A stretch of DNA of 29,258 bases from a virus: positions 1-29,258 of the IMG/VR virus record IMGVR_UViG_3300009481_000066; one strand, written 5' to 3'. The position numbers and the translations under genes are program-made. Numbering within the stretch: the stretch's first letter is position 1; each line of letters begins with the position of its first letter. The notes below the pieces were generated by a model that was not told the DNA's origin, searched no databases, and worked only from the letters and a program-made list of their open reading frames with translations. Shown in pieces: positions 12,317 through 28,950 of the stretch.

Positions 12317-12322
12317 CGTGTC

Positions 12323-12807: not shown

Positions 12808-13295
12808 CAGGGGTTCCACGTCGGCGTGTGCGCCCAGGGCGCCCAGGGCCCGTAGAGGAGCTGGACATCGTCCAGCGACGCGAACGCCGCCTGAGGCGTC
12901 ATCCCCCGCATGTTGTCTGCAGACCACTCGACACCGCGCACGCGCCACACCTGCCCCAGGCGTAGGGGTGGGACCTCCAGCGGCCACAGGTAGTCGACCG
13001 CCTGCAGCCCTTCCGAGAGGTCGACCTCGCGACCATCGAGGATCTCTTCGCCGCGGATGACCTTCGAGTACGACTCGTCCGTGTCCTGGTCGACCGCGGT
13101 GAACATGCGGACACCGTCACGGCGCACCCAGGCACCGCCCCAGTAGCGCCACCAGGGCCGCTTCGGGTGCGCGTCCTTCGGCTGCGGGTACCGATCGAAC
13201 GGAGCAGCCACCTGCCCGTTCTCGTTCAGGAAGAGCACGTAGCCGTGAGGACCCACGAGTCCCACGTTGACAGCCATCCCGGGGAATCCAGACAT
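12807..13295 (-). CDS. Hypothetical Trp-rich protein
   Basis: 162 aa with ATG at 13295 (MSGFPGMAVNVGLVGPHGYV); AAGGAG lies 6 nt upstream, so the in-frame TTG at 13301 is not used. Short beta-like segments dominate: VLFLNENGQVAAPFDRYPQP, RPWWRYWGGAWVRRDGVRMF, VDYLWPLEVPPLRLGQVWRV. It has its own promoter, TTGACT-17-TAGCGT, overlapping the end of the primase gene, with a leader of about 14 nt. No function can be assigned. Confidence 0.78.
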   Translation of the reverse strand: MSGFPGMAVNVGLVGPHGYVLFLNENGQVAAPFDRYPQPKDAHPKRPWWRYWGGAWVRRDGVRMFTAVDQDTDESYSKVIRGEEILDGREVDLSEGLQAVDYLWPLEVPPLRLGQVWRVRGVEWSADNMRGMTPQAAFASLDDVQLLYGPWAPWAHTPTWNP

Positions 13296-13315
13296 CGACA
13301 ACTCCTTGGTCCCTT

Positions 13316-13344
13316 ACGCTATCCTCCCTTCTCCTCAAAGTCAA
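13316..13344 (-). promoter_or_regulatory. Promoter for the 13295 gene unit
   Basis: On the minus strand, TTGACT (13344-13339), a 17-base spacer and TAGCGT (13321-13316). The TAG of the -10 is also the stop codon of the primase gene. Predicted start is near 13309, with AAGGAG in a very short leader. Confidence 0.65.
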
Positions 13345-15436
13345 CTCGGATGACCTCTCCGCCCTCGGGGCGCTGCCAACGCCACAGCCTGCGAGCCTTG
13401 CCCGCTTGCTGCTTGCGTCCCTTGGGGCTCGCGCCGATCTTCTTCAGGACGTCAGCAACACGCATCTGCTGCCCCCGCCCCATGCGGTCGGGCGTCAGCT
13501 CCAACGCGTGCTCCATCAGGTCGCGCACGGTGAAGGTCGCCCAGGTTCCCTGCTTGCCTCCCGCGATGAGCCAAGACTCGATCAGCTCGCCCCAGGCGTC
13601 CTGTGACGTGAACTCGTCCGCGACCAGCCCGCGCTCCTTCTCGCCACCACGGCTGAGCCACCAGGGCTCCTTCCTCTCGTAGAGCGCGACCGCTTCCGAC
13701 CACAGGTTCTCTCGATTCGCCCGAAGCCACTCCAGGTCGATCTTGCCCACCCGCACCGGCCAGAACCGCCGTGAGCCCGTGGGGTCGCTGAGGAAGGCGT
13801 CGTCGTTGGTGGTCGCGCAGAACACCGTGTGCCGATCGTGGCGCTCCGCTCGGCGCCCGTAGGGGAGGCGGAACGTGTCGTCCTGCGCGGAGAGGAACGC
13901 CTTGATGGTCGTGCGGTCCCGTCCTCGGAAGCCCTCCAGCTCAGCAATCTCGTAGATCCACGCAGCCCGGAGCTGCATGTAGGCGTCCTTGTTGCTGAGG
14001 TTCAGGGGGGTGTCGCTGAACCAGTCGTCGCCCGCCAGCGCCCGCATGGCCGTCGACTTGAACGCCCCCTGAGGCCCGACGAGCACGAGCACTGAGTCCG
14101 TCTTGGTGCCCGGCACCAGCCCGCGAGCGACGGCTTGGATGAGCCAGCGCTTGCCCATCTCCCGATGCAGCGGGGTGTCCTCGACGCCAAGGCCGCGGAT
14201 CAGCCACGTGTCTGCCCTATCGGTGCCATCCCACGCCATCGCCCGCAGCTGCTCCGCCAGGGGGTTCCGCGCCCGTGCCCGGCAGATGGCCGAGACCACG
14301 CTGGTCAGATCGGTCGAGGAGTAGTTCAACCCGTACGCCTGCTCGACCCAGCGCCGCATGCCGGTCTCGTCGGCGTCTGCCATCGGCACGTCATCGATCA
14401 TGTCGACCGCCCGCAGGACGTCGAACCACAACCGGCCCTTCCAACGCACGTCCTCTTCGAGGATGACGTGGAGGTTGTTGATCGACTTGCTCGGCGGCCA
14501 CTTCCGCTTGCCCTCCTTGTCGAGCTTCCAGTCGAGCTTGTCGAAGATGCCGACGTCTCCGGCGATCTTCGTGACTTCGGTCTCCTCCTCCCACCACCAC
14601 TTCGCCGGGGTCTCGATGTGCCCATGGTTGCCCGAGGTGCACACCAGGAGGACGCCCGTGCGTCGCTTGCGGAGGAAGGCGGCACCGAAGCTCGTCTCGC
14701 CCGGGACATGCGGGCAGTAGCACTTGAGCTTCTCGCCGGGGCTGGCCTTCCGGGCCCACTTGCGCACCATGACGATGCCCGACTCGTGGGAGACCGGCAT
14801 GTCCCCGTCGAGCATCTCCGCGCCCAGGGGGGCGCCGCTGTAGGTGCCCTTGAGCACCTCGTCGACATCCAGGCAGAAGCCCTCGACGTGTCGAAAGTGA
14901 TACGCGTCAGTGGCGACTGTCGGGACGAACCATGCGCGGCTCGGATCCTTGCACTGCTTGTCCGGCCGCGCTCCGGAGTCCGTGCTCCGCGCAGATGCCC
15001 ACGCCCAGATGCGGTAGTACTCGGAGACGGTGACGGGACGCGTGAAGGGGACGAACACCCGGCACTTCGGGTACTCCGCCCTGTGGCTGGGCGTCGTGTG
15101 GATCAGACAGCCCCAGTCATTCCAGATCTCCTCGACCAGGGCGAGCGAGCTGCCGCCGTCGTAGTCGAGGCCCAGGGCGTAGACGCCCTCGATGGCTTTG
15201 AGCCCCCGACTGGCGCCCTCTTTGAGTCTGACGGGCTGCCACAGCGGCAACTCCATCTTCGTGGCGCCGCGCTTCTTCCCGCGACCGATGCCCTCCTCGC
15301 ACAGCTTGGTGACCCACGTCAGCCACGCCGTCGGGCCGGTCTTGATGGGCGTCGACTGCGCTCGGTTGCCGAACACGCTCACCCACAGGCGCACGTCATC
15401 GGTTGACGCCGTCACCTGCCCTCCGCTATCGTTCAT
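13319..15436 (-). CDS. Primase-helicase (archaeo-eukaryotic-type primase plus VirE-like ATPase)
   Basis: 705 aa, ATG at 15436 with GAGG 6 nt upstream. The N-terminal part fits a primase of the AEP kind used by phages and plasmids: LGLDYDGG (89-95) supplies two acids, followed by CRVFVPFTRP (about 125-134) and DPSRAWFVP (164-172). The middle has a Cys/His cluster (KCYCPH at 238-243, VCTSGNHGH at 265-273), probably zinc-binding. The C-terminal ATPase matches virulence-associated E/phage helicases: Walker A GPQGAFKST (454-462), Walker B region WIYEIAELEG (493-502), sensor CATTND (540-545), arginine motif GSRRFWPV (554-561). It should prime and unwind phage DNA. It has its own promoter and a long leader with a hairpin, suggesting separate control. 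Confidence 0.88.
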   Translation of the reverse strand: MNDSGGQVTASTDDVRLWVSVFGNRAQSTPIKTGPTAWLTWVTKLCEEGIGRGKKRGATKMELPLWQPVRLKEGASRGLKAIEGVYALGLDYDGGSSLALVEEIWNDWGCLIHTTPSHRAEYPKCRVFVPFTRPVTVSEYYRIWAWASARSTDSGARPDKQCKDPSRAWFVPTVATDAYHFRHVEGFCLDVDEVLKGTYSGAPLGAEMLDGDMPVSHESGIVMVRKWARKASPGEKLKCYCPHVPGETSFGAAFLRKRRTGVLLVCTSGNHGHIETPAKWWWEEETEVTKIAGDVGIFDKLDWKLDKEGKRKWPPSKSINNLHVILEEDVRWKGRLWFDVLRAVDMIDDVPMADADETGMRRWVEQAYGLNYSSTDLTSVVSAICRARARNPLAEQLRAMAWDGTDRADTWLIRGLGVEDTPLHREMGKRWLIQAVARGLVPGTKTDSVLVLVGPQGAFKSTAMRALAGDDWFSDTPLNLSNKDAYMQLRAAWIYEIAELEGFRGRDRTTIKAFLSAQDDTFRLPYGRRAERHDRHTVFCATTNDDAFLSDPTGSRRFWPVRVGKIDLEWLRANRENLWSEAVALYERKEPWWLSRGGEKERGLVADEFTSQDAWGELIESWLIAGGKQGTWATFTVRDLMEHALELTPDRMGRGQQMRVADVLKKIGASPKGRKQQAGKARRLWRWQRPEGGEVIRVDFEEKGG

Positions 15437-15451
15437 CTGCTACCTCGTTCG

Positions 15452-15491
15452 GCGCCCGCTGGTCTGACCTCCCCAGGCTTCCAGCGGGCGC
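15452..15491 (-). promoter_or_regulatory. Leader hairpin of the primase-helicase mRNA
   Basis: GCGCCCGCTGG (15452-15462) and CCAGCGGGCGC (15481-15491) are perfect 11-bp inverted repeats with an 18-base loop. In the minus-strand mRNA the loop contains GGGGAGG, a Shine-Dalgarno-like run held in the loop. The stem ends 15 nt before the real start codon. No U-run follows, so it is not an intrinsic terminator; a translational control or protein-binding site is more likely. Confidence 0.6.
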
Positions 15492-15525
15492 TCTTCGTAG
15501 GGGGCACCACCTCGGCGGCCTGAGC

Positions 15526-15555
15526 AACCTACGAGGCTGATGCCCGTGGCGTCAA
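15526..15555 (-). promoter_or_regulatory. Promoter of the primase-helicase gene
   Basis: On the minus strand, TTGACG (15555-15550), an 18-base spacer and TAGGTT (15531-15526). The start would be near 15519, leaving a leader of about 83 nt that contains a strong hairpin. An inverted repeat GTGTC-N6-GACAC (15557-15572) sits just upstream of the -35. Confidence 0.55.
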
Positions 15556-15581
15556 GGTGTCGAAGTTGACACGGCGAGGGA

Positions 15582-15908
15582 TCAGCGCTCCACCGGCAGA
15601 TCTGGCATGCCCAGCACCCTGCGCAGCTTCTCCGTGTAGCAGGGCCCCGGGGTGAAGTCGCCGTGGTTCTGGCAGCCGCCACTGTGGTCGAGGCAGCACG
15701 GTGAGTCTGCGCCCGAGTCTTCCGCCATCATCTGGAGGAGCTGGCGCGACTCGATCATCTCGACCGCCATCGAGTACACCTCCTTGGCGTCCATGGCGTA
15801 GGTCGAGTGACCCCGGTGCATCGGCAGCGGGTCGAGTCCCTCGGGGTCTGGGCGCGGTGAAGCGGTCATCAGCACAAGCTCCAAGAGTCGTTCATCGGTG
15901 AGCCTCAC
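15582..15908 (-). CDS. Small Cys/His-rich protein
   Basis: 108 aa from a GTG at 15908 that overlaps the previous stop (GTGA) and has GGAGG just upstream. It starts VRLTDERLLELVLMTASPRP. A helical stretch follows (KEVYSMAVEMIESRQLLQMM), then CCLDHSGGCQNHGDFTPGPC, which has four Cys and two His and may hold a metal ion. It is the second gene of a two-gene unit driven by the promoter at 16181-16209. Function unknown. Confidence 0.7.
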   Translation of the reverse strand: MRLTDERLLELVLMTASPRPDPEGLDPLPMHRGHSTYAMDAKEVYSMAVEMIESRQLLQMMAEDSGADSPCCLDHSGGCQNHGDFTPGPCYTEKLRRVLGMPDLPVER

Positions 15909-16156
15909 GTTCTCCTCCCTTCCTTCCGATCCCACTCCTTGTGCTCTTCCCACCACGCCTGGACTTCAGGCGGCAGGAAGCTGTTGACGCCTCCCGGCCA
16001 CGAGACCTTCTCCAGCTCGCTGAGCGGGGCGCACAGGCCTCGTGAGAGCATGTCGATCTGGATGCCCCGCTTCATCGCGATGCGGCGAAGCTCCGAGATG
16101 CTGGAGGTGTTGTAGTCCGAGGCTGTGGGCCCGCCTGGGCCGCCGCTACATCCCAT
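15905..16156 (-). CDS. 83-residue hypothetical protein
   Basis: ATG at 16156 with AAGGGGAG about 5 nt upstream and a promoter whose -10 ends 25 nt upstream, giving an 18-nt leader. It begins MGCSGGPGGPTASDYNTSSI and continues ELRRIAMKRGIQIDMLSRGL, probably a helix, ending Trp/Glu/Arg-rich. The same frame stays open further upstream, but that part runs into the tRNA gene and cannot be coding. No family recognised. Confidence 0.7.
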   Translation of the reverse strand: MGCSGGPGGPTASDYNTSSISELRRIAMKRGIQIDMLSRGLCAPLSELEKVSWPGGVNSFLPPEVQAWWEEHKEWDRKEGRRT

Positions 16157-16180
16157 CGATTCTCCCCTTCGTTCACAGCC

Positions 16181-16209
16181 ACGGTAATAGCGCGTCTCCG
16201 TGACGTCAA
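16181..16209 (-). promoter_or_regulatory. Promoter for genes 16156 and 15908
   Basis: On the minus strand, TTGACG (16209-16204), a 17-base spacer and TACCGT (16186-16181). The predicted start is near 16174, about 18 nt before the ATG, with the Shine-Dalgarno AAGGGGAG in the leader. Confidence 0.65.
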
Positions 16210-16232
16210 GAAGAAATCTGAACCAGACGTGC

Positions 16233-16264
16233 GAAGACCCCGAGGGGCACTCCTCAGGGTCTTC
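16233..16264 (-). other. Strong hairpin downstream of tRNA-Pro
   Basis: GAAGACCC (16233-16240) pairs perfectly with GGGTCTTC (16257-16264). Inside, GAGG pairs with CCTC after a single mismatch, leaving a six-base loop. It lies 74 nt beyond the tRNA 3' end on the minus strand, just upstream of the -35 of the next promoter. It may end or protect the tRNA transcript. No good U-run follows immediately, so a classic intrinsic terminator is uncertain. Confidence 0.55.
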
Positions 16265-16337
16265 AGGTAGGATCCGTTCCTGCCTCGCGCGGCGGTGTCG
16301 GGTCGCAGCGAAGGTCAGCGTAGCAGGGCGAAGGAGG

Positions 16338-16411
16338 TTCGGGCGGCTGGATTTGAACCAACGACCGCCTGCTCCCAAGGCAGGTGCGCTACCAGACTGC
16401 GCTACACCCGA
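16338..16411 (-). tRNA. tRNA-Pro (anticodon TGG)
   Basis: The minus strand folds as a full 74-nt tRNA: acceptor TCGGGTG/CGCCCGA with one G-U pair, D stem GCGC/GCGC with a GG-containing loop, anticodon stem CCTGC/GCAGG with loop CTTGGGA (anticodon TGG), a five-base variable loop, T stem GTTGG/CCAGC with loop TTCAAAT, and discriminator A. CCA is not encoded. It reads CCA proline codons and possibly other CCN codons. It is the only tRNA seen and lies between two minus-strand gene units. Confidence 0.93.
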
Positions 16412-16540
16412 AGATCTCCGCCCCTGCTCAGCAGGTTGGTCGTTCGGGTCGGGTGGTACGCAGGATCATGTTGATGGCACCCCCCGGCTCTCGCACGGCA
16501 TCGCCCAAGGGTGAGTCCAGTACGCAGGGGGTGAGCAACC
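16412..16540. other. Short intergenic spacer with a palindrome
   Basis: About 130 nt without a gene between the 16541 gene end and the tRNA. It contains CCTGCTCAGCAGG (16423-16435), a 13-bp palindrome about 12 nt upstream of the tRNA 5' end. No convincing promoter was seen, so the tRNA is probably read through from the upstream genes or from an atypical promoter. Confidence 0.4.
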
Positions 16541-17011
16541 CTACTCCGTGGCGCCGAAGTTGTCCAGGAGGTCGCGAAGTACGCGCTCCAAGATGCCTGA
16601 AGCGGAGATGGCGTCTGAGGTCATCGACCCCGTCTCCCACAGGCGCACGCCCTCCAGCGCAGTAACCAGCTCGACCACGACGCGCAGATCCAGGGGTCCG
16701 TACTTGTTTCCTGCGAGCGCGTGGGCCCGATGGCGGTGGTAGGCGAAGGTCGGGTTGGGCGAGGGGCCGAGGTCTGACACGACTGCCCACAGCGCCCCCA
16801 CGGTGGCGGGGTCGGAGAAGTCCGGGCACTCGCCCTCTCCCAGCTCACACCAGTCACTTAGCCAGTCGTCAACCGCCCATACGGCGCTGTGCGGACTGGC
16901 CTTGACGCAGATGCCTCCAGCAGCCAGATCGCGCATCCCCGGCTTCCAGACCCAGCGCTTGCATGCGGCGGCCCGAATGCCCAAGTTCTTCAAGAACAGC
17001 TGCTCAGACAT
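16541..17011 (-). CDS. Hypothetical protein
   Basis: 156 aa, ATG at 17011 overlapping the previous gene by 8 nt, with GGAGG 6 nt upstream. The sequence has several Cys and Trp residues (AAACKRWVWKPGMRDLAAGG, VWAVDDWLSDWCELGEGECP) and a conserved-looking YHRHRAHALAG. The end is a helix (ASGILERVLRDLLDNF). Second gene of the leftmost unit leaving the central noncoding region. No function assigned. Confidence 0.75.
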   Translation of the reverse strand: MSEQLFLKNLGIRAAACKRWVWKPGMRDLAAGGICVKASPHSAVWAVDDWLSDWCELGEGECPDFSDPATVGALWAVVSDLGPSPNPTFAYHRHRAHALAGNKYGPLDLRVVVELVTALEGVRLWETGSMTSDAISASGILERVLRDLLDNFGATE

Positions 17012-17372
17012 CCTGATCCTCCCCGCCCTCTTCCGCGTCCTCTTCGTCCAGAATCCTCCGGAGCCGCGCAGGCAGCGGCGTTGATCGCACCCGCTCGGCG
17101 TGGCGCTCCCACTGCGCGTCGCGCTCCTCGCGCATCTCGCACTCCCACTGCCCCAGGCCCCGCACGATGAGATTCAGGATGATCGCGTTGCGCGACCACC
17201 CGGTGCCCAAGGCGTCCTTCGTCAGCCGCGTGGTGCGGGCAAGTCTCGTGAGCAGCTCGGGGGGCACGTTCAGGTGCAGCTGCGTATGCCCGGTGAGGTG
17301 GAATCGCGTCTTCGCCGCGAGTGCGGTCCAGACGTCATCGGCCCATGCGGGCGGGGGAACGGTTCGCGCCAT
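17004..17372 (-). CDS. Ribbon-helix-helix-like regulator (first gene of the minus arm)
   Basis: 122 aa. The ATG at 17372 is chosen because GGAG lies 7 nt upstream and the promoter start point falls about 17 nt upstream; a TTG at 17393 would lie on the start point itself. Residues about 29-75 (TQLHLNVPPELLTRLARTTR then GWSRNAIILNLIVRGL) fit a beta strand plus two helices of an Arc/MetJ-like protein. The C-terminus is Glu/Arg/Asp-rich. It is adjacent to the iteron region, so it could be the protein that binds there or a regulator of early leftward expression. Family is inferred from pattern. Confidence 0.72.
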   Translation of the reverse strand: MARTVPPPAWADDVWTALAAKTRFHLTGHTQLHLNVPPELLTRLARTTRLTKDALGTGWSRNAIILNLIVRGLGQWECEMREERDAQWERHAERVRSTPLPARLRRILDEEDAEEGGEDQDV

Positions 17373-17395
17373 GTCGGTCTCCAGTATTCTCAACC

Positions 17396-17424
17396 AAGGT
17401 ATAGACGTATGGGGGTTGTGTCAA
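17396..17424 (-). promoter_or_regulatory. Promoter of the first leftward unit
   Basis: On the minus strand, TTGACA (17424-17419), a 17-base spacer and TACCTT (17401-17396); TATACC at 15-base spacing is an alternative -10. The predicted start near 17389 gives a short leader to the ATG at 17372. It faces away from the iterons that begin 27 nt upstream, so origin binding could affect it. Confidence 0.65.
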
Positions 17425-17545
17425 CACCAGATTTGAGAAAATGCGGCCGACCGACCTCTACCGACCTCCGAGCAGCCCAAAAGCTTCCGCGAAGGCCCAT
17501 TCTCGCCCGCATCGACCGACCTCTACCGACCTCTACCGACCTCCG
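17425..17545. repeat. Iteron clusters A and B
   Basis: The ten-base unit CCGACCTCTA (or CCGACCTCCG at the end of a run) occurs in tandem at 17451 and 17461, then at 17516, 17526 and 17536. The exact 10-base period places all copies on one helix face, as for a replication initiator or regulator binding in a row. No coding frame fits the region. Confidence 0.72.
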
Positions 17546-17705
17546 ATAAAATGGTCGGTAAAGTCTAACCCCTCGGAATCCTTCCCCCTTTTCTATTACT
17601 CTACCATCTACCATCCTCTCAGGTATAGTATAAGAGAAGAAGAGTATGTTATAAAGAAAAGGTTTATAGAATAGGGAAACATACCAATCTGATATTGTAA
17701 GTAGT
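17546..17705. other. AT-rich stretch between iteron clusters, candidate unwinding element
   Basis: About 160 nt with runs such as AGGTATAGTATAAGAGAAGA and TATGTTATAAAGAAAAGG, sharply AT-richer than the GC-rich genes around it. It sits between iteron groups on both sides. With the repeats it has the layout of a replication origin. A diverged inverted unit (ATGGTCGGTA) lies at its left edge. Confidence 0.6.
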
Positions 17706-17711
17706 GACCCC

Positions 17712-17811
17712 CGTCGGTCGGTCGGTGAGGTTGGTCGATATTCGCGCATATCGCACCTTGAACCCAGCGTTTCGACAATGACCGACCTCTACCGACCTCT
17801 ACCGACCTCAC
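17712..17811. repeat. Iteron clusters C (inverted, diverged) and D
   Basis: At 17713-17726 the tetramer TCGG repeats three times, followed by GAGGTTGG, a one-mismatch inverse of the iteron. At 17782, 17792 and 17802 there are three more direct CCGACCT units in 10-base register, the last ending CAC. Direct copies here and in clusters A/B total eight. Confidence 0.7.
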
Positions 17812-18338
17812 GCACGTAAAACTAAATAAATGATTAGGTGAGAGGGGGTGAGGATGAGGATGCGGCATAATAGGGTCAGCGACTAATAGAGAGATTTACC
17901 TGTGTGAAGAGAGTACCTCCCCCCGGAATACCGGACCCCCCCGCCCCCAACACCGGGATGCCCCCCGGAGGCGACCGACCCCACCACCCCTGGCCCCTCT
18001 CCTGGCCTCTCCTGGGGTTTGTACCTACACGTGTCGGCGAAAACCCCGTGTTTGCTGTGTTCCGTTACGGAAGAGAGGGCCCCGGGTACCCCGACGCTAC
18101 CGAACGGAAGGGTAAAGAATAATGGGGTTATGACCGACACTCGATTTCCCTCAGGATCGACGCACGGCCCTTGGTCGGTACCCGTGCCTGCCTGGAAGGG
18201 GTCGACGCAGCCAGTGGCCAGCCAGACCCCTTCACGGTTATCTACTCACGGGTAGAATAGACCTGATTTCAGGTACTTAGGGCGCGTACCTCGAAAAAGG
18301 ATCAACATTGCTCTTGGATCGGCCCAGGAAAGGCGGAA
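17812..18338. other. Noncoding spacer right of the iterons, partly C-rich
   Basis: No convincing gene. The left part (17815-17900) is AT-rich. From about 17927 to 18016 the plus strand is very C-rich, with many runs of three or more C, so the minus strand has several G-runs that could form a G-quadruplex. Small inverted repeats occur (CCGG-AATA-CCGG near 17934; AGGTAC...GTACCT near 18271). A 41-codon frame opening at an ATG near 18130 lacks a ribosome site and is not called. Confidence 0.5.
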
Positions 18339-18366
18339 TATGCAGGAAAGGGGGATTTCCTGCATA
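18339..18366. repeat. 11-bp perfect inverted repeat
   Basis: TATGCAGGAAA (18339-18349) and TTTCCTGCATA (18356-18366) with a six-base centre GGGGGA. A second TGCATAAA lies about 30 nt to the right. It could be a protein site or an RNA hairpin. Confidence 0.6.
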
Positions 18367-18450
18367 AATATAAGGAATAGACGGCGTATCTTTGCATAAA
18401 ACCGAGGTTTCCCTCGCGCGGGGAGCCATATATAGCCAGGAGGGACTATT

Positions 18451-18539
18451 GCACTTCTGCACATTTCCACCCCAAACTGTGCAGAACCGCACAATGCCGA
18501 CACAACCCCCTGAAATCACTGATATTCCTGCACTTCTGC
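18451..18539. repeat. GCACTTCTGC repeats and TTCTGCACA inverted repeat
   Basis: GCACTTCTGC occurs at 18451-18460 and 18530-18539. TTCTGCACA (18455-18463) is matched by the inverted TGTGCAGAA (18478-18486) across 14 bases. This looks like a set of sites for one protein. Confidence 0.5.
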
Positions 18540-18601
18540 TGATCTATTAGCAAGATGGCCAACACGTTGGCAGGAGCGGCGCCTGGGCAGGCTGCGGGCG
18601 C

Positions 18602-18713
18602 GGTGCGCAAAGATCTACGCAGGGCGTGTAAACCGTTTCGCACCGCGTAGACCGGCCCGCCGGGCCAATCGGCGAGGATTTAGGGGCTTCTGGGGTGCGA
18701 AAAGATCTACGCA
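18602..18713. repeat. 20-bp direct repeat pair containing AGATCTACGCA
   Basis: GGTGCGCAAAGATCTACGCA (18602-18621) and GGTGCGAAAAGATCTACGCA (18694-18713) differ at one base. Between them, TTTCGCACC (18636-18644) is an inverted copy of the left half and GCGTAGACC (18645-18653) a near inverted copy of the right half. Probable regulatory or origin-related sites. Confidence 0.65.
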
Positions 18714-18740
18714 CTTGAGGGGCGGCGGATCGCGTAAGTG

Positions 18741-18895
18741 CCTGAAATGACGTGTTTTCAGGGGTTGGCACGGCCCCTGCAAGGCTCTCCAGGCATCGAC
18801 ACTGCGTCGATAGCCCCGGTCCGCCGGGGCACGGGCCCCACGGCCCGCGTCTTCCGGGACACAGGCGAGAGCTTGGGAATAAATCTCAAGTTTTT
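18741..18895 (+). ncRNA. Candidate small structured RNA ending in a terminator
   Basis: Four hairpins follow each other on the plus strand: CCTGAAA/TTTCAGG (18741-18762), AGGGG/CCCCT (from about 18760), ATCGAC/GTCGAT around 18794-18810, and CCCCGG-TCCG-CCGGGG (about 18815-18830). A terminator-like stem then follows at 18872-18895. No clear promoter or open frame was found, so this may be a small RNA or the end of a longer transcript. Confidence 0.4.
18872..18895 (+). terminator. Intrinsic terminator-like hairpin
   Basis: CTTGGGA (18872-18878) pairs with TCTCAAG (18884-18890; one G-U) around loop ATAAA and is followed directly by TTTTT. The stem is not GC-rich, so efficiency may be modest. 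It lies just upstream of the promoter for the large RNA and would insulate it. Confidence 0.55.
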
Positions 18896-18897
18896 GT

Positions 18898-18924
18898 TTG
18901 ACAGCCCCGGATATCGTGTAAAGT
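18898..18924 (+). promoter_or_regulatory. Promoter-like sequence before the large RNA
   Basis: TTGACA (18898-18903) is followed after 15 bases by TAAAGT (18919-18924). The spacing is short; reading the -35 one base earlier gives 16. It is the only such pair between the terminator and the structured region. The start would be about 18931. Confidence 0.5.
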
Positions 18925-18930
18925 GGTGTC

Positions 18931-19880
18931 CATCGGAGATGCGCTGATAGCGACTCTCCAAGCTCTTTTCCCCTCCCTGTGAGGCGCCGATGCAGCGGCG
19001 ATACCCCTGCGGACCCCCACGGGACTACGTGCGACGCCTGAGATGGCCGACCGCTTAGATGTCTCCTGGGCCTGGAGCAATAGTTCCGCACGGGCTCCCA
19101 GCCCGTGGGCGTTGACGTCGGCGAGACCGGCTAAGCGTCGTGCAACGTGGTCCCGGAATCAACCGGGCCCGTGGACAAGCCCCGAACCTGTCCCCGTCCG
19201 CAGTAGACCCCGCAAGGGGTAGAACCGGACACAGGCTCAGTAGGGATTCTATCTACGGTAGGGAGCAGGGCATACGCCCGTCAGGCTCCCAACGGCGTCC
19301 CCGAATGGCGTGGGGCGTGCGCGGCGCGGTGTCGGTCAGATACGGCGGGCAATGCCGCTGTCACTTGTGACGTAGCCGAGCCGAGGACGTTGGGAGTCCG
19401 GCTCGGAACCCTGAGGGAGAACCACGCGTCTCCGGGCCCCTCAGGCATAGCAAGCGAGACGCGACGGGCGAAAGGTGGGCCGGAGCTTTCGGGCTTCCAT
19501 GGCAGGCCACAATCACCATTCGTCCGGGCTGGCAACCGAAACAGGACCGAGGGCCCGAGAGCCCCGGAGCTGGACATGGGCACAAGTTGAGGACGGGCAT
19601 TGACTACGCCGGGCACTGAGGGGACTCGATCCCCCACTGCCCAACGGCAACGGTCGCAACCCCTGAACCCCCAGCAGTCAACCGATAGCGACACTGAAAG
19701 ACCGGGGCGACCCGGCTCAGCCGAGCTTAGACCGACTACAAAGCACCCTCCAGGCCGGGCAGACTCACGGGCCCTCCCCTGAAATGAGCTACCAGCTACG
19801 CGCCCCAAGTAGGGGCATCCCGCAAGGGAAACAGGGCTCTCGGCAAGACCGAGACGGGCGTAGCTGGTGGCTCTTTACAG
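18931..19880 (+). ncRNA. Candidate large structured noncoding RNA (about 0.95 kb) or giant operon leader
   Basis: No frame looks coding, yet perfect stems follow one another: GGAGA/TCTCC enclosing CGCT/AGCG (18935-18959); CACGGGCT-CCC-AGCCCGTG (19089-19107); CCCGG/CCGGG (19152-19167); CCTGT/ACAGG enclosing TCCG/CGGA and ACCCC-GCAA-GGGGT (19187-19235); GGGAGC/GCTCCC enclosing GGGC-ATAC-GCCC (19261-19290); CCGAGCC/GGCTCGG enclosing GGAC/GTCC (19376-19406); CCTGAGG/CCTCAGG (19410-19445); GGGCA/TGCCC enclosing GGGG/CCCC (19611-19642); and a 16-bp helix around three hairpins (19786-19873). GNRA loops occur twice. A promoter-like site precedes it, and the first rightward gene starts 21 nt after the last helix. 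Size and ornament resemble GOLLD/ROOL-class phage RNAs, but no family match was tested. Confidence 0.65.
19786..19873 (+). ncRNA. 3' four-way-junction domain of the large RNA
   Basis: GAGCTACCAGCTACGC (19786-19801) pairs with GCGTAGCTGGTGGCTC (19858-19873) over 16 bp with one G-U. Inside are three hairpins: GCCCC-AAGTA-GGGGC (19802-19816), TCCC-GCAA-GGGA (19818-19829) and TCTCGG-CAAGA-CCGAGA (19838-19854). Linkers are 1, 8 and 3 bases. This is not a tRNA: arm sizes and the closing stem differ. Confidence 0.75.
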
Positions 19881-19894
19881 GGAGGTGAGAGAAC

Positions 19895-20071
19895 ATGGCC
19901 AAGATCTACCGCGACGTGCGGAACCCTGAGCGCTACCTCGGCTACGGCGGGCAGTCCTACGGGGCGGCTCCCGTTCGTCGCCGCAAGGCAAGCAAGCCGA
20001 GCGAGCCTCGCATCAACCCGCGCCCCCCGGGCACGACGACTGTGCTCCGCAAGGCGGTGACCCGTGGCTAA
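19895..20071 (+). CDS. 58-residue basic protein, first gene of the plus arm
   Basis: ATG at 19895 with GGGAGGTGAGAG just upstream. It starts MAKIYRDVRNPERYLGYGGQ and is rich in Arg, Lys and Pro (PVRRRKASKPSEPRINPRPP), ending TVLRKAVTRG. A small nucleic-acid-binding protein is possible from composition only. Its stop overlaps the next start by 8 nt. It begins 21 nt after the last helix of the large RNA, so it may share that transcript. Confidence 0.72.
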   Translation: MAKIYRDVRNPERYLGYGGQSYGAAPVRRRKASKPSEPRINPRPPGTTTVLRKAVTRG

Positions 20072-20336
20072 GCTCCACCGCACCACCAGCCCCTTGGGCG
20101 TGGGCCACAAGCCCACCCACTGCGGGCTCAAGCCGAGCACTGCCTACGTGGTCAACAGCTACGGCTACAGCATGAGCAGCGCTCGCCACCTTGCCGACCG
20201 CATTCACGTCCCACTGTGCCGGCGCTGCTGGCCGGACGGCGACACCGCGCATCGCACGGACTGTGCGACGCAAATCGACCACGCCCTCCGCTGTACCTGC
20301 GAGAGGGAAGCAACCTGGGAGGCCACCCGTGGCTGA
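20064..20336 (+). CDS. Small Cys-containing hypothetical protein
   Basis: 90 aa, GTG start at 20064 inside the end of the previous gene. It has a possible treble-clef-like spacing of Cys and His (KPTHCGLKPST early, VPLCRRCWPDGDTAH in the middle, RCTCERE late). This looks like a phage zinc-binding protein with one HxxxC and one CxxC. Function unknown. Confidence 0.72.
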   Translation: MAKLHRTTSPLGVGHKPTHCGLKPSTAYVVNSYGYSMSSARHLADRIHVPLCRRCWPDGDTAHRTDCATQIDHALRCTCEREATWEATRG

Positions 20337-20556
20337 GTACAACGGACACCGCAACTGGAACCACTGGAACGTGAGCCTGTGGCTCTTCAATGACGAGGGG
20401 CTGTATCGCCTGATGCGACAGGCCGTGCGGCACCACTCGACGTTGGACGCTGCCGCCCGACGGCTCGTGTCCTGCTACCTCCCGAGCGAGACGCCCGACG
20501 GCGCCCCCTACACCTTCACCTCGGTCCGAGCTGCGCTCGTAGGCTGGGAGGAATGA
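20329..20556 (+). CDS. Small phage protein of the N-x-x-x-W-N-V-x-L-W type
   Basis: 75 aa, GTG at 20329 overlapping the previous gene by 8 nt. The N-terminus AEYNGHRNWNHWNVSLWLFN carries the pattern seen in a widespread small family of phage and plasmid proteins (Y-N-G-x-x-N-x-x-T/H-W-N-V-A/S-L-W), which has no established function. The middle is helical (LYRLMRQAVRHHSTLDAAAR). Confidence 0.72.
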   Translation: MAEYNGHRNWNHWNVSLWLFNDEGLYRLMRQAVRHHSTLDAAARRLVSCYLPSETPDGAPYTFTSVRAALVGWEE

Positions 20557-20813
20557 TGCCTGAGACCTACCGAGACTGCCCCCACTGCGACGGCGAGGGC
20601 CACGAGCCCTGGCACCCGCACCCGGGCTGTGGCGACAGCGAGCCCCCCGCCTGCCGCCCCTGCGACGGCACGGGCATCCATCCCGAGGAGCTGGCTCGCC
20701 TGGACCAAGAGCTTGAGCAGCGCCGGGCCTGGGTGCACGGCAAGCCGGGCAGCGTCAGCGAGTGCCACCACCTGGACCACGCCGATGCCTCGGGCCGGTA
20801 CGACGACTACTGA
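20556..20813 (+). CDS. Small protein with DnaJ-type zinc motifs
   Basis: 85 aa from the second of two consecutive ATGs (20553 and 20556); GGAGG is too close to the first. Two CxxCxGxG motifs, CPHCDGEG and CRPCDGTG, would form one zinc-binding unit like the DnaJ cysteine-rich domain. The remainder is helical and charged (EELARLDQELEQRRAW). It may be a small chaperone-like or regulatory zinc protein. Confidence 0.75.
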   Translation: MPETYRDCPHCDGEGHEPWHPHPGCGDSEPPACRPCDGTGIHPEELARLDQELEQRRAWVHGKPGSVSECHHLDHADASGRYDDY

Positions 20814-20823
20814 GGAGGTGAGT

Positions 20824-21078
20824 GTGAAGCGCGAAGACATGACCACGTGGGAGCTGCTGCGCCGGATCGAGCGCCGCATGGAGGGAGCACAGCTCAAGCT
20901 GAACAGCGCTGTGCTTGACGCCCGAGAGCTGCGCAAGCGGCTCGACACTGGGCCCGAGCTGCCCGAGGAGGGCGCCGAGGCGTGGCTCGCCATCGACATC
21001 ATGACCCGAACGGAAATCTCCGATGCGCAGGCCCGGCGGGTGCTGCGCACCATTCCCAAGCTCAAGGAGCGGATCTGA
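20824..21078 (+). CDS. Small helical hypothetical protein
   Basis: 84 aa, GTG at 20824 with AGGAGG 5 nt upstream. It starts (M)KREDMTTWELLRRIERRME, followed by a long helical segment (KLNSAVLDARELRKRLDTGP). It ends ARRVLRTIPKLKERI. No family recognised. Stop and next start overlap as TGATG. Confidence 0.72.
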   Translation: MKREDMTTWELLRRIERRMEGAQLKLNSAVLDARELRKRLDTGPELPEEGAEAWLAIDIMTRTEISDAQARRVLRTIPKLKERI

Positions 21079-21329
21079 TGACCCGTGACCAGCTCTTGAC
21101 CGAGGCCATCGACCGCCTGACCGAGGCCATCCGTCTGGCGGACGAAGCCTTTGACCTCGCCTGCACTCAGTTGGGTCGGCAGGTTGAGGACGACAGCACC
21201 TTGACGGACGACGAGTGCTGGGCTGTCGAGGAGGCAACCGAAGACCTCATCCGCATGACCGAGCCGATGGAAGCCTGCCGACGCAAGCTCCAGGGCGCGA
21301 GGGATCTGCCTGCCATCAAGGGGAAGTGA
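21078..21329 (+). CDS. Small helical hypothetical protein
   Basis: 83 aa, ATG at 21078 coupled to the previous stop. Mainly helical and acidic: QLLTEAIDRLTEAIRLADEA, then EECWAVEEATEDLIRMTEP-like composition with two late Cys. No motif that names a function. Confidence 0.7.
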   Translation: MTRDQLLTEAIDRLTEAIRLADEAFDLACTQLGRQVEDDSTLTDDECWAVEEATEDLIRMTEPMEACRRKLQGARDLPAIKGK

Positions 21330-21331
21330 GA

Positions 21332-21457
21332 ATGCGAGACCGACTGCTGACGATCGTGTGGCTGCTGACCGGAGTGATCTGGGTCGGCGTCGCGAACGCT
21401 GCCCTCGTGGGCTGCTACCTGGAAGGGCCCGACGCCGGGCTGGTGAGGGAGGACTGA
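21332..21457 (+). CDS. 41-residue single-span membrane protein
   Basis: ATG at 21332 two bases after the previous stop. MRDRLLTIVWLLTGVIWVGV and ANAALVGCYL form one hydrophobic helix with Arg residues at the N-terminal side and an acidic tail (GPDAGLVRED). It probably sits in the inner membrane with the N-terminus inside. Small membrane proteins in phage early operons can affect host physiology or superinfection; none is claimed here. Confidence 0.68.
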   Translation: MRDRLLTIVWLLTGVIWVGVANAALVGCYLEGPDAGLVRED

Positions 21458-21612
21458 TGGCTGTGATGGACACCCTGAGGGCCTACGTCGACAGCGACCG
21501 GGACGTGCTGAGCGTGCTCCGGTGGGCTGGAGAGCAGGGCTGGAGCCTCGATCGAGTGCTGAGAAACCCACAACGCGTCGTCACCCGATGGCGGGCGAGT
21601 CTGGAGGACTGA
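21457..21612 (+). CDS. 51-residue hypothetical protein
   Basis: ATG at 21457 coupled to the previous stop (TGATG), with GAGGGAGGA upstream. MAVMDTLRAYVDSDRDVLSV and LRWAGEQGWSLDRVLRNPQR suggest a helical bundle. Function unknown. Confidence 0.68.
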   Translation: MAVMDTLRAYVDSDRDVLSVLRWAGEQGWSLDRVLRNPQRVVTRWRASLED

Positions 21613-22121
21613 TGGATCCGACTGCTACCCTGAAGCTGCTACTCGGCGTGCTTGACCTCGACGATAGCCGCAAGCCCTGCTCCGATGCCTGTCGCGGAGA
21701 GCACGACTACCAGCAAGAGCGGGCGTGGCTCGCTGCTGAAGCCTACGAGCACGCCACAGCGTTGGATGCGTGGCTCATCTCGGGCGGGTTCCGCCCCACC
21801 GGGGACGAGGGCGGCGAGGCGTCAGCGAATGCCATCGCCAGGGCCTCCGAGCTGGCGAACGCTGTGCTCAGCGAGGCTCACCAGCGCGTGTTCCTGGAGA
21901 ACTGGTGTGAGTGTGAAGACTGCGGCGAGATGACCTTCGCCCCGGGTGACAACGGCGACGTCTGCGCCGCGTGCGGCGAGGGCCTCTGCACCATCGACTA
22001 CACCGATGGCTGGACCTACTGGACCTGCCTGCCCGGGTGCCTGCCTGACTCCGATCCCTTCGGCCCGTACGACACCATGGTGGACGCCGTGCAGGCTGCC
22101 CTCGATTCCCTTTGCGACTAA
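21612..22121 (+). CDS. Hypothetical protein with C-terminal zinc ribbon
   Basis: 169 aa, ATG at 21612 coupled to the previous stop. The N-terminal two thirds are helical and acidic (YQQERAWLAAEAYEHATALD). Near residue 105 is CECEDCGEMTFAPGDNGDVC followed by AACGEGLC, a CxxC...CxxC zinc ribbon. It may bind a partner or nucleic acid. No family recognised. Confidence 0.75.
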   Translation: MDPTATLKLLLGVLDLDDSRKPCSDACRGEHDYQQERAWLAAEAYEHATALDAWLISGGFRPTGDEGGEASANAIARASELANAVLSEAHQRVFLENWCECEDCGEMTFAPGDNGDVCAACGEGLCTIDYTDGWTYWTCLPGCLPDSDPFGPYDTMVDAVQAALDSLCD

Positions 22122-22129
22122 GGTGAGAG

Positions 22130-22339
22130 ATGAGCAAGCTCCAGACCCTGATCGACACTGTTCACGAGTGCCGCATGGAGGGTGTGCTCATTGAGCACCC
22201 CGCCGTCGGCGGTGTCGGGTTCGTCTGTGCCACCAACGCCCAGGCCAACGTCGTGCAGCGGTTCGCCCGCAGCCTGGGCATCCGCACCACCATCCTGGGC
22301 ATGACCGTCCACGCCTACGGCAAGGAGATCGAGCGATGA
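22130..22339 (+). CDS. 69-residue hypothetical protein
   Basis: ATG at 22130 with AAGGTGAGAG upstream. MSKLQTLIDTVHECRMEGVL, VGGVGFVCATNAQANVVQRF and SLGIRTTILGMTVHAYGKEI suggest an alpha/beta fold. Its stop overlaps the next ATG by 4 nt. Confidence 0.72.
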   Translation: MSKLQTLIDTVHECRMEGVLIEHPAVGGVGFVCATNAQANVVQRFARSLGIRTTILGMTVHAYGKEIER

Positions 22340-22647
22340 GCACCGCGATCCACACCCTGACGGCGGCTGACCGCCGCGTCAGTCTGATCTACGACCACGA
22401 CCACATCCCGGAGTACGGGCTCGACACCCCGAAGGAGACGGCGGAGGCTGTGGCCTGGGAGCAGGAACGCCTCGACGACGGGCGCCTCACTGCCTACGGC
22501 GTCGTCACCGAAGAGCGCTGCACCCACTGTGGCGAGTGGGCTGAGACCGACAGCATCTGGGGCTGCGTCGAAGCGTGCCCCCCTGGCGGCGAAGACGACG
22601 ACTTCACCCGCCACATGTACCAAACATTCATCGGAGGTGAGCTGTGA
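22336..22647 (+). CDS. Hypothetical protein with a CTHCGEW motif
   Basis: 103 aa, ATG at 22336 (ATGA overlap). The middle has EERCTHCGEWAETDSIWGCV then EACPPGG, giving a four-Cys set (CxxC, C, C) that may bind zinc. The N-terminal half has acidic and His residues (IYDHDHIPEYGLDTP). Function unknown. Confidence 0.72.
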   Translation: MSTAIHTLTAADRRVSLIYDHDHIPEYGLDTPKETAEAVAWEQERLDDGRLTAYGVVTEERCTHCGEWAETDSIWGCVEACPPGGEDDDFTRHMYQTFIGGEL

Positions 22648-23312
22648 CCTGGACCGAGACCATCTATGACGATGGCAAGGGCGCGACCCGCTACGTGGGC
22701 TGCGATGCCCTGCTGCACGGGGACTACTGCGGCAGCAGCTGCATCGGCGAGGCCAACATCGCCTCACTGATCGAGCTGTGCGACGAGTACGGCATCGAGT
22801 ACGACCACATCCCTGCCCGTGATGCGAGCGCGGACACCGTGCGCTTCGGCTTCCGCGACGCACCGCAGCTGCCCGTGCTCATCGTGGGCGGGGGCTGGTC
22901 AAGCCGGTGGGCGCTCATCCGGGACGACGACCCGAGCCCGGAGGGCAGCTACACCATGCCCAAGGTGCTGCGGGACGTGGTGGCTGCACTCGCTGACTAC
23001 CCCATCCTCGACGAGGACAAGCACAGTGAGACCGAGATGGAGGCACAGGCCGAGGCGTGGGAGAGCTGGGTCAGGGACGATCTGCGCCGGGGCCTGGACG
23101 AGGACGTGGAGGATGCGCTCGATGCGCACACTCCGCAGCCTCCCCACGAGGACGACGACATCGAGTACACCGCCTTCCGCACTGCCGCCGAGGAGTGTAA
23201 CGAGTACTGGATCGACGAGACGGGTGGCATGTACTTCCCCGTCGACCGGATCAAGGATGCGTACGCTGCGGCGCTGCGCGAACTGCTGGGCATGCTGCCC
23301 GAGGAGGACTGA
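22644..23312 (+). CDS. Hypothetical acidic protein
   Basis: 222 aa, GTG at 22644 (GTGA overlap) with GGAGG 6 nt upstream. The N-terminus has RYVGCDALLHGDYCGSSCIG and SLIELCDEYGIEYDHIPARD. A strand-like segment LPVLIVGGGWSSRWALIRDD follows. The C-terminal half is very acidic (RGLDEDVEDALDAHTPQPPH). No family recognised. Confidence 0.75.
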   Translation: MTWTETIYDDGKGATRYVGCDALLHGDYCGSSCIGEANIASLIELCDEYGIEYDHIPARDASADTVRFGFRDAPQLPVLIVGGGWSSRWALIRDDDPSPEGSYTMPKVLRDVVAALADYPILDEDKHSETEMEAQAEAWESWVRDDLRRGLDEDVEDALDAHTPQPPHEDDDIEYTAFRTAAEECNEYWIDETGGMYFPVDRIKDAYAAALRELLGMLPEED

Positions 23313-23656
23313 TGACGACTCGCTGCAGCAGCATGCTCGACATCGCACGCCGTCACCTCGAAGCGCACTCACTGGTCATCGACGAGTACATCATGCTCGC
23401 CGCCCACGATGTGGAGCGCACCGTGATCGGACCCATGTGTCGGTGGTACGGCCTGACCTACAAGTCCGGAATGGGCACGTGGTTCTTCGAGAAGGACGGG
23501 AAGATCCTGTTCGACGGAGTCTGGTCTGACGTTGAGTCCTGTCCGGCTGACTGGGCTGCCGACTACGAGGCAGCCCGCGACGCATTGCACACGGTGGTCG
23601 GAGGCATCACCATCTCGGACTACACCCGCGACTACATCCCCCCTACGGAGGACTGA
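23312..23656 (+). CDS. Hypothetical protein
   Basis: 114 aa, ATG at 23312 coupled to the previous stop, with GAGGAGGA upstream. Aromatic-rich middle (CRWYGLTYKSGMGTWFFEKD) and a helix (DWAADYEAARDALHTVVG). No motif assigned. Confidence 0.74.
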   Translation: MTTRCSSMLDIARRHLEAHSLVIDEYIMLAAHDVERTVIGPMCRWYGLTYKSGMGTWFFEKDGKILFDGVWSDVESCPADWAADYEAARDALHTVVGGITISDYTRDYIPPTED

Positions 23657-23659
23657 GAC

Positions 23660-24025
23660 ATGGCACGCAAGAGCTACCACGACAGGGCCGAGGCCCACGA
23701 GTACCTGTGGGATCTGTTCAAGGGACGGCGCAGCCGTGAGAGCCTGACGATCTATCCCGTGCTCCGCGCCGTGAGCAGGGACGGGATGTCCAGGTGCATC
23801 GACTTCTTCATCGTCCGCGACGGACAGATCCGCGACATCACGGGGCTCGTCGCCGGACTGCTGGGCTTGCGTCTCTCGACGAAGTTCGGCCCGGCGAACA
23901 ACTCCGCCATCGTCGGGGGCTGCGGCATGGACATGGGCTTCCACGTCGTGTCCAACGTGAGTCGCGCGCTCTTCCAGGGCAAGCGCGACCGCCCCGACTA
24001 CGTGATCAACTGCGAGTGGAGGTAG
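23660..24025 (+). CDS. Conserved-looking phage hypothetical protein
   Basis: 121 aa, ATG at 23660 with GGAGG 8 nt upstream. It carries RDITGLVAGLLGLRLSTKFG followed by NNSAIVGGCGMDMGFHVVSN, a Gly/Cys/Met-rich segment that I recall as typical of a family of phage proteins with no known role. The N-terminus is basic (MARKSYHDRAEAHEYLWDLF). Confidence 0.74.
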   Translation: MARKSYHDRAEAHEYLWDLFKGRRSRESLTIYPVLRAVSRDGMSRCIDFFIVRDGQIRDITGLVAGLLGLRLSTKFGPANNSAIVGGCGMDMGFHVVSNVSRALFQGKRDRPDYVINCEWR

Positions 24026-24027
24026 CT

Positions 24028-24423
24028 ATGGCTGAGCACTGGCTCGACATCCTGCCCGCCATCACGCTCGCTCGGGGGGTGCCAGTCACGTCCTCGTCCC
24101 GGGCTCTCGCCACGCAGTTCGGTGACTACGGGCGCGGCGTCGTCGGCCTGCACCAGGACACGGCATCCGGCCCGATGGTGCGGACCGTCCGGGACACGGG
24201 CGACCTCGATGGCGGGTGGACCGCCGAGCACTGCTTCCGGGTCGACCTCGACGACCCCCAGGGCTTCGGGTACGCGCTGCGGTGGCTGGCCATCAACAGC
24301 GACGACCGCGCGGACGACATCATCAACCGGCTGTCCGACCAATGGCTCAACTGGTGGGAGTCCATCAATCCCGCCGACCGCCTCGCCCTGGCCCGCGCCA
24401 TCGCTGAGATCATCAACACCTGA
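24028..24423 (+). CDS. Hypothetical protein
   Basis: 131 aa, ATG at 24028 with GGAGG upstream inside the end of the previous gene. It begins MAEHWLDILPAITLARGVPV; the middle has HCFRVDLDDPQGFGYALRWL and the end is helical (DRLALARAIAEIINT). No family recognised. It is followed by an 88-nt gap containing a hairpin. Confidence 0.74.
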   Translation: MAEHWLDILPAITLARGVPVTSSSRALATQFGDYGRGVVGLHQDTASGPMVRTVRDTGDLDGGWTAEHCFRVDLDDPQGFGYALRWLAINSDDRADDIINRLSDQWLNWWESINPADRLALARAIAEIINT

Positions 24424-24451
24424 AGGGCGGAGCCGGCAACGGCATGCGCCC

Positions 24452-24488
24452 GGGGGCTGCGGCGCTTCCTGCCTCGCGCCCAGCCCCC
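24452..24488 (+). other. Strong intergenic hairpin
   Basis: GGGGGCT (24452-24458) pairs with AGCCCCC (24482-24488); inside, GGCGC (24461-24465) pairs with GCGCC (24476-24480). It lies in the 88-nt gap after the 24423 stop. There is no U-run, so mRNA processing or partial termination is as likely as a true terminator. Confidence 0.5.
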
Positions 24489-24511
24489 ACCCCTTCCACC
24501 CTGGAGAGACG

Positions 24512-24787
24512 ATGTCCCTGATGCCCGAGCACCTCCGCACCGCGGCTACGATCTGCGGCCTGGAGGCCACCGCCGACCCGCAGGCTACCCACACTGCCCT
24601 GCAGCACGAGCTGTACACGGCGGGCCGCAACCTGAGCGGGGCGCACACCGTGCGCTCAATGTGCGAAGCGTTCCTCGAAGCGGCGGCCTCGGCCTGCGCT
24701 GACCTCAACGATCACGAGTCCGCCGGGCTCCTCCGCAACCTCGCTGCGCTGGCTGAGCCTGAGAAGGAGGACGCGAGCGATGAGTAG
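24512..24787 (+). CDS. Small Ala-rich hypothetical protein
   Basis: 91 aa, ATG at 24512 with GGAG upstream. MSLMPEHLRTAATICGLEAT opens a helical protein; later AFLEAAASACADLNDHESAG and an acidic end. It overlaps the next gene by 8 nt. No function assigned. Confidence 0.72.
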   Translation: MSLMPEHLRTAATICGLEATADPQATHTALQHELYTAGRNLSGAHTVRSMCEAFLEAAASACADLNDHESAGLLRNLAALAEPEKEDASDE

Positions 24788-25145
24788 CTGCGAGCACAAC
24801 GACTTCACCTTCGATCGCTACGAGGAGAATGGCAACAGCTACGTCGTCCACCTCACCTGCCGAAGCTGCGGTAGCTCCGGATCCTTTGCCATCGAGCACG
24901 AGTGGATCCTGTGGCCTGAAGAGGACGAAGAGGAGCCCACCGACTGCGACAGCTGCGACGGCACGGGCATCGTCGGAGGGCAGGGCTACCTGGGCAGCGA
25001 CAACATGGATGTGGTGATGGTCGTTATGCCCTGTGACGACTGCACTGCGCACGAGGCTGTGCCCGCTGAGATCTTCGGCACGTACGACTACGAGCTGCCC
25101 GCCCGTGTCGAGCGGTACCTCAAGGCGGTGGGCGTCTTTGACTGA
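24780..25145 (+). CDS. Zinc-binding protein with several CxxC motifs
   Basis: 121 aa, ATG at 24780 with GGAGG 9 nt upstream. CRSCGSSG, CDSCDGTG and CDDC are spaced like DnaJ-type or rubredoxin-like zinc sites; CEHN near the start may add a ligand. The region between is acidic (EEDEEEPTD). It resembles the gene at 20556 in the CDGTG motif, so the two may be related. Confidence 0.76.
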   Translation: MSSCEHNDFTFDRYEENGNSYVVHLTCRSCGSSGSFAIEHEWILWPEEDEEEPTDCDSCDGTGIVGGQGYLGSDNMDVVMVVMPCDDCTAHEAVPAEIFGTYDYELPARVERYLKAVGVFD

Positions 25146-25151
25146 ACCCTC

Positions 25152-25180
25152 TTGACACCATCTCTCTCCACTGTTAGCGT
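25152..25180 (+). promoter_or_regulatory. Promoter of the 25209 gene
   Basis: TTGACA (25152-25157), a 17-base spacer and TAGCGT (25175-25180). Predicted start is near 25187, 22 nt before the ATG, with AGGAGGA in the leader. The -10 is identical to those at 13316 and 28909. Confidence 0.68.
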
Positions 25181-25208
25181 CACCCCGTCCCCACTGAGGA
25201 GGAACCCC

Positions 25209-25763
25209 ATGTCCGTCGAGTCCTTCATCCCCACCACGAGCCGCAAGCGGCTGAAGCTGACGCACACCAAGCGTGCCCGCAAGCCGATCCCCGAGGCTGG
25301 CGTCGAGGTCGGCACCGAGTACTGGGCAGTGAAGCCCTACCGCCGTCCGCGCCGCATCTTCCTGGAGGAGCCCGCACCCGACGACGAGCGCCTGTTCGTC
25401 GTCAAGTACCTGAGCAAGAACGCGCTGATCCAGGTCGCGCGGGATGCCGTCGAGAGCCTCGACGTCAGCGACGGGAAGAACACCATCTACAACACGATCA
25501 CCGAGGCGGCGGACATCATCGAAGGCGCCGCCTCCGAGTACGGCGAGAGCCGCGACAACATGCCTGTCGAAGGCAGCGAGATGTGGGAGAAGCTCGACGA
25601 GATCGCCAACGCTGGCGAGGACGTGGCGTCCAACCTGCGCTTCGCCGCTGACGAGGTCGACGGCCTGGACGAGGACGGCGACGACTTCGAGGACGAGCTG
25701 GAGATGGCGCTCCAGGAGGCGCAGTCCGCAGCGGGCGACGCCCTGTCCTGGGACGACGTGTAG
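25209..25763 (+). CDS. Basic-to-acidic two-part hypothetical protein
   Basis: 184 aa, ATG at 25209 with GAGGAGGA 5 nt upstream, driven by its own promoter. The N-terminus is basic (TTSRKRLKLTHTKRARKPIP) and could bind nucleic acid. The C-terminal half is acidic and helical (EIANAGEDVASNLRFAADEV and an Asp/Glu-rich end). A dedicated promoter suggests high expression. No family recognised. Confidence 0.76.
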   Translation: MSVESFIPTTSRKRLKLTHTKRARKPIPEAGVEVGTEYWAVKPYRRPRRIFLEEPAPDDERLFVVKYLSKNALIQVARDAVESLDVSDGKNTIYNTITEAADIIEGAASEYGESRDNMPVEGSEMWEKLDEIANAGEDVASNLRFAADEVDGLDEDGDDFEDELEMALQEAQSAAGDALSWDDV

Positions 25764-25765
25764 CC

Positions 25766-28599: not shown

Positions 28600-28608
28600 G
28601 GAGTCTCC

Positions 28609-28875: not shown

Positions 28876-28885
28876 ATCTTTTTCC

Positions 28886-28914: not shown

Positions 28915-28950
28915 GCTCTCCCCAATCAACCGATCTCCCCCGGAGTCTTC

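Follow-up and report, generated by a model that had tools for sequence, protein, structure and literature searches.

A candidate giant structured RNA probably heading the rightward transcript of an uncultivated phage

INTRODUCTION

In an uncultivated phage, about 950 bases lie between the leftward and the rightward genes; what is their role, and could this stretch act as an RNA? To our knowledge, very few giant RNAs have been described from phages. Two of them, GOLLD and ROOL, whose function is unknown, are often located by tRNA islands and build RNA-only cages (PMC12286853). The object of the analysis was the IMG/VR virus record IMGVR_UViG_3300009481_000066, positions 1–29,258; this whole stretch of 29,258 bases is referred to below as the window. 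We analyzed coding potential, predicted folding, flanking expression signals, and possible homologues of the region 18931–19880.

RESULTS

Genome context and coding potential

The leftward arm of the phage encodes an SU10-type adaptor, a P22/SU10-like portal, the large terminase subunit (TerL), and a VapE-type primase-helicase, while small unknown proteins and an SNF2-type helicase are encoded in the rightward arm. The candidate region lies between these arms and forms the right-hand 0.95 kb of a non-coding stretch of ~2.5 kb in total (17394–19894). It is followed by the first rightward gene:

19895–20071, plus strand: gene of 58 aa that opens the rightward arm, with a positive codon score and a strong Shine-Dalgarno sequence; it starts 10 nt past helix P1 (described below)

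A tRNA-Pro (TGG) gene was found within the leftward arm at 16336–16411 on the minus strand (Rfam, 66.5 bits), 2.5 kb from the candidate RNA. The same virus is represented by a 46.7-kb contig (L004/L003, IMGVR_UViG_3300024344_000029), which is 100% identical to the window over 1–12782 and 24182–29258. It carries window positions 1–12784 and 24182–29258 at its two ends and lacks 12785–24181, including the candidate RNA region. This coverage suggests a genome of ~58 kb, circular or circularly permuted.

The adjacent segment 17394–18930 resembles control DNA with iterons and operators. At 17439–17819, ten-base iterons TACCGACCTC in tandem and inverted GGTCGGT copies surround an AT-rich stretch (~17590–17710), and a replication origin is plausible here. 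GGTCGGT repeats likewise surround an AT-rich stretch upstream of the primase of the closest cousin, L002 (L002:100–430). Operator repeats GGTGCGNAAAGATCTACGCA with an inverted copy are located at 18602–18621, 18628–18647, and 18694–18713, and similar GGTGCGAA....TACGCACC elements precede the rightward arm of another family member, G025. Inverted repeats CCTGAAATNA / TTTCAGG at 18255–18273, 18507–18535, and 18736–18764 are possible regulator sites.

All ORFs of at least 30 aa were scored with a codon-usage measure trained on the phage's own genes. The score was negative for every such ORF in 17394–19894, as opposed to +12 for the ORF 19895–20071, and GC content by codon position was flat over ~18881–19840 and became periodic past 19841. 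The absence of a believable gene noted in an earlier sequence-only reading is therefore borne out for 18931–19894. An unrecognized or decayed protein gene in this interval could be sought among its ORFs, which reach 175 aa (19281–19808, minus strand), but this longest candidate scored −62 and there was no codon periodicity, making such a gene very improbable.

Predicted structure of the RNA

Fold stability was expressed as z-scores against dinucleotide-preserving shuffles. The plus strand of 18925–19895 (971 nt) had z −4.53, compared with −3.39 for the minus strand. The 950-nt plus-strand interval 18931–19880 (z −4.06) was the most extreme among 950-nt windows sampled across the phage on both strands, none of the others passing −2.6 on either strand. 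The region thus combined two properties expected of a large structured non-coding RNA: it is non-coding, and its plus strand folds more stably than dinucleotide shuffles and than the rest of the genome. The predicted elements are the following.

18931–19885, plus strand: candidate large structured RNA, non-coding, predicted from one sequence (z −4.06 and −4.53 for the intervals above)
18935–18959, plus strand: 5' hairpin GGAGA..UCUCC, pair probability 0.95–1.0, z −3.2 alone
18972–18983, plus strand: 5' strand of the end-closing helix P1, CCUCCCUGUGAG, pairing with 19874–19885 (p 0.96)
19110–19345, plus strand: domain 1, z −2.98 on the plus strand vs −0.10 on the minus strand, including a GCAA hairpin arm (19196–19230)
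19542–19781, plus strand: domain 2, a long branched arm with a GCGA hairpin; z of 19540–19785 −4.59 plus and −3.8 minus, basal helices p 0.98–1.0
19786–19873, plus strand: domain 3, a 16-bp stem leading to a four-way junction that bears three hairpins (one GCAA); z of 19784–19876 −7.84 plus and −7.2 minus, with 0/200 shuffles as stable; 19784–19875 folded alone, z −6.85
19874–19885, plus strand: 3' strand of P1, UUUACAGGGAGG, overlapping the Shine-Dalgarno sequence GGAGGTGA (19881–19888)

P1 comprises 12 bp and joins both ends of the predicted fold; an equally good helix appeared in 5 of 1000 shuffles. Its interpretation as the terminal repeat of a transposon was rejected, as no flanking target duplication was visible. 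In domain 1, the GCAA hairpin is accompanied by an internal loop, AGUA/GAA (arm 19187–19236, z −3.2), which, by eye, resembles a bulged-G (sarcin-ricin) motif.

The two GCAA tetraloops reported earlier are present (19212 and 19822), along with a third GNRA hairpin, GCGA, at 19707. GNRA hairpins occur only on the plus strand of the region, at 3.1 per kb compared with 0 on the minus strand and 0.2–0.65 per kb elsewhere, that is, ~5–15 times more densely, albeit in small numbers.

The fold signal is unevenly distributed. About 40% of the candidate's length folds near chance level (18931–19110, z −1.4; 19345–19540, z −0.8), and the signal is partly strand-symmetric, as seen in the minus-strand score of domain 3. 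Nine strong local perfect stems were counted vs 7.9 ± 2.3 in shuffles, and under a stricter score 3 vs 3.8. Since simple strong hairpins are at the shuffle mean, their number is not evidence in itself, and the excess resides in the architecture. Of the original claim of at least nine strong stems, the count thus loses its weight, while the larger plus-strand architecture, with its domains and end helix, stands (z −4.1 to −4.5). Likewise, one stable element by itself would not stand out here, because non-coding gaps of related phages contain isolated 200-nt windows at z −4 to −7. Taken together, the fold statistics, the GNRA enrichment, and the non-coding character support the proposed large structured plus-strand RNA as a prediction for this single sequence.

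Putative expression signals flanking the region

Three elements upstream of the region could govern its transcription.

18766–18781, plus strand: sigma-54-like −24/−12 element TGGCACGGCCCCTGCA, preceded by CGTAAGTGCCTGAAAT (flank from 18733), shared with the related contigs G025 and L052
18871–18899, plus strand: terminator-like hairpin GCTTGGGA/ATAAA/TCTCAAGT followed by the T tract TTTTTGTTT, −8.0 kcal/mol
18898–18924, plus strand: weak promoter-like TTGACA - 15 nt - TAAAGT, read from the sequence, with a putative start near 18931

The first element and its flank are nearly identical at G025:24741 and L052:4097 and may represent an upstream rightward promoter of the sigma-54 type. Both the intrinsic-terminator-like hairpin and the TTGACA (18898–18903) of the sequence-only reading are in place. 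The hairpin was not among the calls of a consensus terminator scan. The promoter is weak: a sigma-70 scan did not call it, its 15-nt spacer being below the range allowed by the scan.

The same consensus scan revealed no plus-strand intrinsic terminators in 17000–21000, and the predicted fold extends into the Shine-Dalgarno sequence of gene 19895 with no terminator in between. This arrangement favors a physical link between the candidate RNA and the rightward operon. Translational gating by P1 is not claimed, since the Shine-Dalgarno sequence is predicted to be mostly paired even without the leader (unpaired 0.27 vs 0.21).

Comparison with known RNA families

A search against Rfam, suggested as a check in the sequence-only reading, was performed with Rfam 15 covariance models (inputs of 1501, 616, and 371 nt; gathering thresholds and, for short inputs, a relaxed E of up to 10). 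No match was obtained to GOLLD (which we take to be RF01998, the identifier given in that reading), ROOL, OLE, group I or II introns, RNase P, or tmRNA, and ARAGORN was also negative for tmRNA. The proposed relationship to GOLLD or ROOL is therefore not supported, even with the cutoff for short inputs relaxed to E 10, while the earlier failure to see an intron, RNase P, or tmRNA signature agrees with the models. Weak matches to mascRNA, CC3664, and che1 were far under the gathering scores. A tRNA-Pro called by ARAGORN at 19144–19213 (minus strand) was judged false, because the Rfam tRNA model did not match even at E 10.

Search for homologues

Blastn searches of the phage and plasmid collections, some of them relaxed to E up to 10, returned only chance matches of 20–43 nt. 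The phage family was defined by shared TerL and comprised 88 contigs with the motif FPFWDGK, mostly ~50–58% identical over most of TerL. In 14 contigs of relatives plus G001 (~690 kb in total), nhmmer found no homologue and blastn gave only short chance matches. The contig of L002, 83% identical in TerL and primase, ends before the candidate region. No sequence homologue was present in the divergent gaps of G020, G019, and G038. The four-way-junction domain, used as a covariance model, matched only itself; the model's two best other matches (E ~0.1), inside the gene directly before the major capsid gene in two relatives, were dismissed as chance. Among the matches listed in a scan for the loop pattern AGTAGA-GCAA-TAGAA, none kept the stems, nor did any in a scan for GCAA-AAACAGG-CAAGA.

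The longer pattern FFPFWDGK had four matches in genome contigs. Related TerL and portal genes are present on two of these contigs, one from a Myxococcales MAG and one from a Proteobacteria MAG. The Myxococcales MAG chromosome (CP070713.1) carries a family relative with 53% identity in TerL and 46% in the portal, a hint at the host range of a family otherwise found mainly in environmental contigs. A search of 379 genomes of the same phylum yielded only short GC-rich noise.

G025 shares the upstream control element, but its first rightward gene begins ~160–180 nt after it, whereas this distance is ~1,110 nt in the window. As far as could be seen from these contigs, the RNA-like segment is lineage-specific, the leader of G025 at this position being only ~160 nt long.

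DISCUSSION

Probably, the rightward transcript begins with a functional structured RNA formed by this region, although as a candidate it is represented by a single sequence. The best explanation, to which we give about even odds, is a ~955-nt plus-strand non-coding module that heads the rightward-operon transcript and acts as RNA, most likely as a cis leader that arose by lineage-specific expansion. Transcription would start near 18931 or, alternatively, farther upstream at the sigma-54-like element and then pass through the hairpin at 18871–18899. The RNA would then fold into a closed multi-domain structure, bringing domain 3 and P1 next to the ribosome-binding site of gene 19895. Because the last domain of the closed fold and P1 adjoin this site, the RNA would most likely act in cis, serving the operon as a giant structured leader; it might also be processed off as a stable species. 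We counted in favor of a leader the non-coding character, the full-length and domain z-scores, P1, the plus-only GNRA hairpins, the upstream hairpin and TTGACA, the missing terminator, the contact with the Shine-Dalgarno sequence, and the leader of G025. Counted against it were the single sequence, the ~40% of chance-level folding, the strand-symmetric part of the signal, the weak promoter with its 15-nt spacer, and the Shine-Dalgarno sequence that is paired without P1.

The segment may instead have no RNA function and represent GC-rich control DNA or a relic or inserted segment, whose few inverted repeats have a role at the DNA level or none. Its neighbor, 17394–18930, looks like control DNA, local stem counts are at chance, parts of it fold no better than shuffles, G025 lacks it, and the gaps of relatives also contain isolated windows of high stability. 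This reading is nevertheless rather unlikely, considering that no other window tested in the phage reaches the plus-strand stability of the full-length region, that 19110–19345 is strand-biased, and that GNRA hairpins are confined to the plus strand. Moreover, phages seldom keep 1 kb of idle DNA. We also consider it unlikely that the region encodes a discrete trans-acting giant ornate RNA similar to GOLLD or ROOL, a large particle made during lysis rather than a regulator of the adjacent gene, which would be released from the primary transcript through processing or Rho-dependent ending. The helix that closes the ends, the GNRA loops, and the large, branched domains would suit such an RNA, as would its size and phage setting, GOLLD being a phage-borne RNA of many domains, often >800 nt (PMC12286853). 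A precedent is phage ICP1, where a ~1-kb ORF-less gap yields an abundant non-coding RNA of ~800 nt, comparable in size to GOLLD and ROOL (PMC7567579). On the other side are the negative Rfam searches, the 3' end at which no terminator was found and the RNA continues into a Shine-Dalgarno sequence, the lack of a detected homologue to support conservation, and the presence of only one tRNA gene nearby, 2.5 kb away and on the opposite strand.

As a giant phage RNA of a new kind, the candidate is credible but unproven. More specifically, we tentatively propose, while regarding it as somewhat unlikely, a new giant ornate class unrelated to GOLLD and ROOL, with its own large architecture, located downstream of the early rightward promoter and ahead of the first gene in a lineage with SU10-type adaptor and portal. 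If true, an unrelated class visibly linked to both promoter and operon would make it easier to ask whether giant RNAs are leaders, scaffolds, or decoys. At present, the candidate is well defined and offers exact boundaries for testing.

The leader interpretation places the candidate beside the structured leaders of phage early operons, since it lies between a promoter and the first rightward gene and overlaps the ribosome-binding site of the latter. It differs from them in being far longer: all such leaders that we know of are far shorter, as is the ~160-nt leader of G025. With GOLLD, it shares the phage setting, a length of ~800–1000 nt, and a multi-domain organization, but it has no covariance-model match at a useful score, is joined to a gene with no terminator between them, and yielded no homologues. 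GOLLD is often, though not always, located near tRNA genes; one tRNA-Pro gene lies 2.5 kb from the candidate, on the other strand. ROOL is likewise a large ornate phage RNA; here too, the covariance model did not match, and no homologues of the candidate were found. The ICP1 transcript also comes from a ~1-kb ORF-less phage stretch, and the phage collection gave no match to the candidate. Expression of GOLLD rises during lysis and its cage is a 14-mer, and the ICP1 transcript was seen by RNA-seq, whereas the candidate is a prediction from sequence. By these comparisons, it is a member of neither GOLLD nor ROOL and resembles both of them, as well as the ICP1 transcript, in size and setting.
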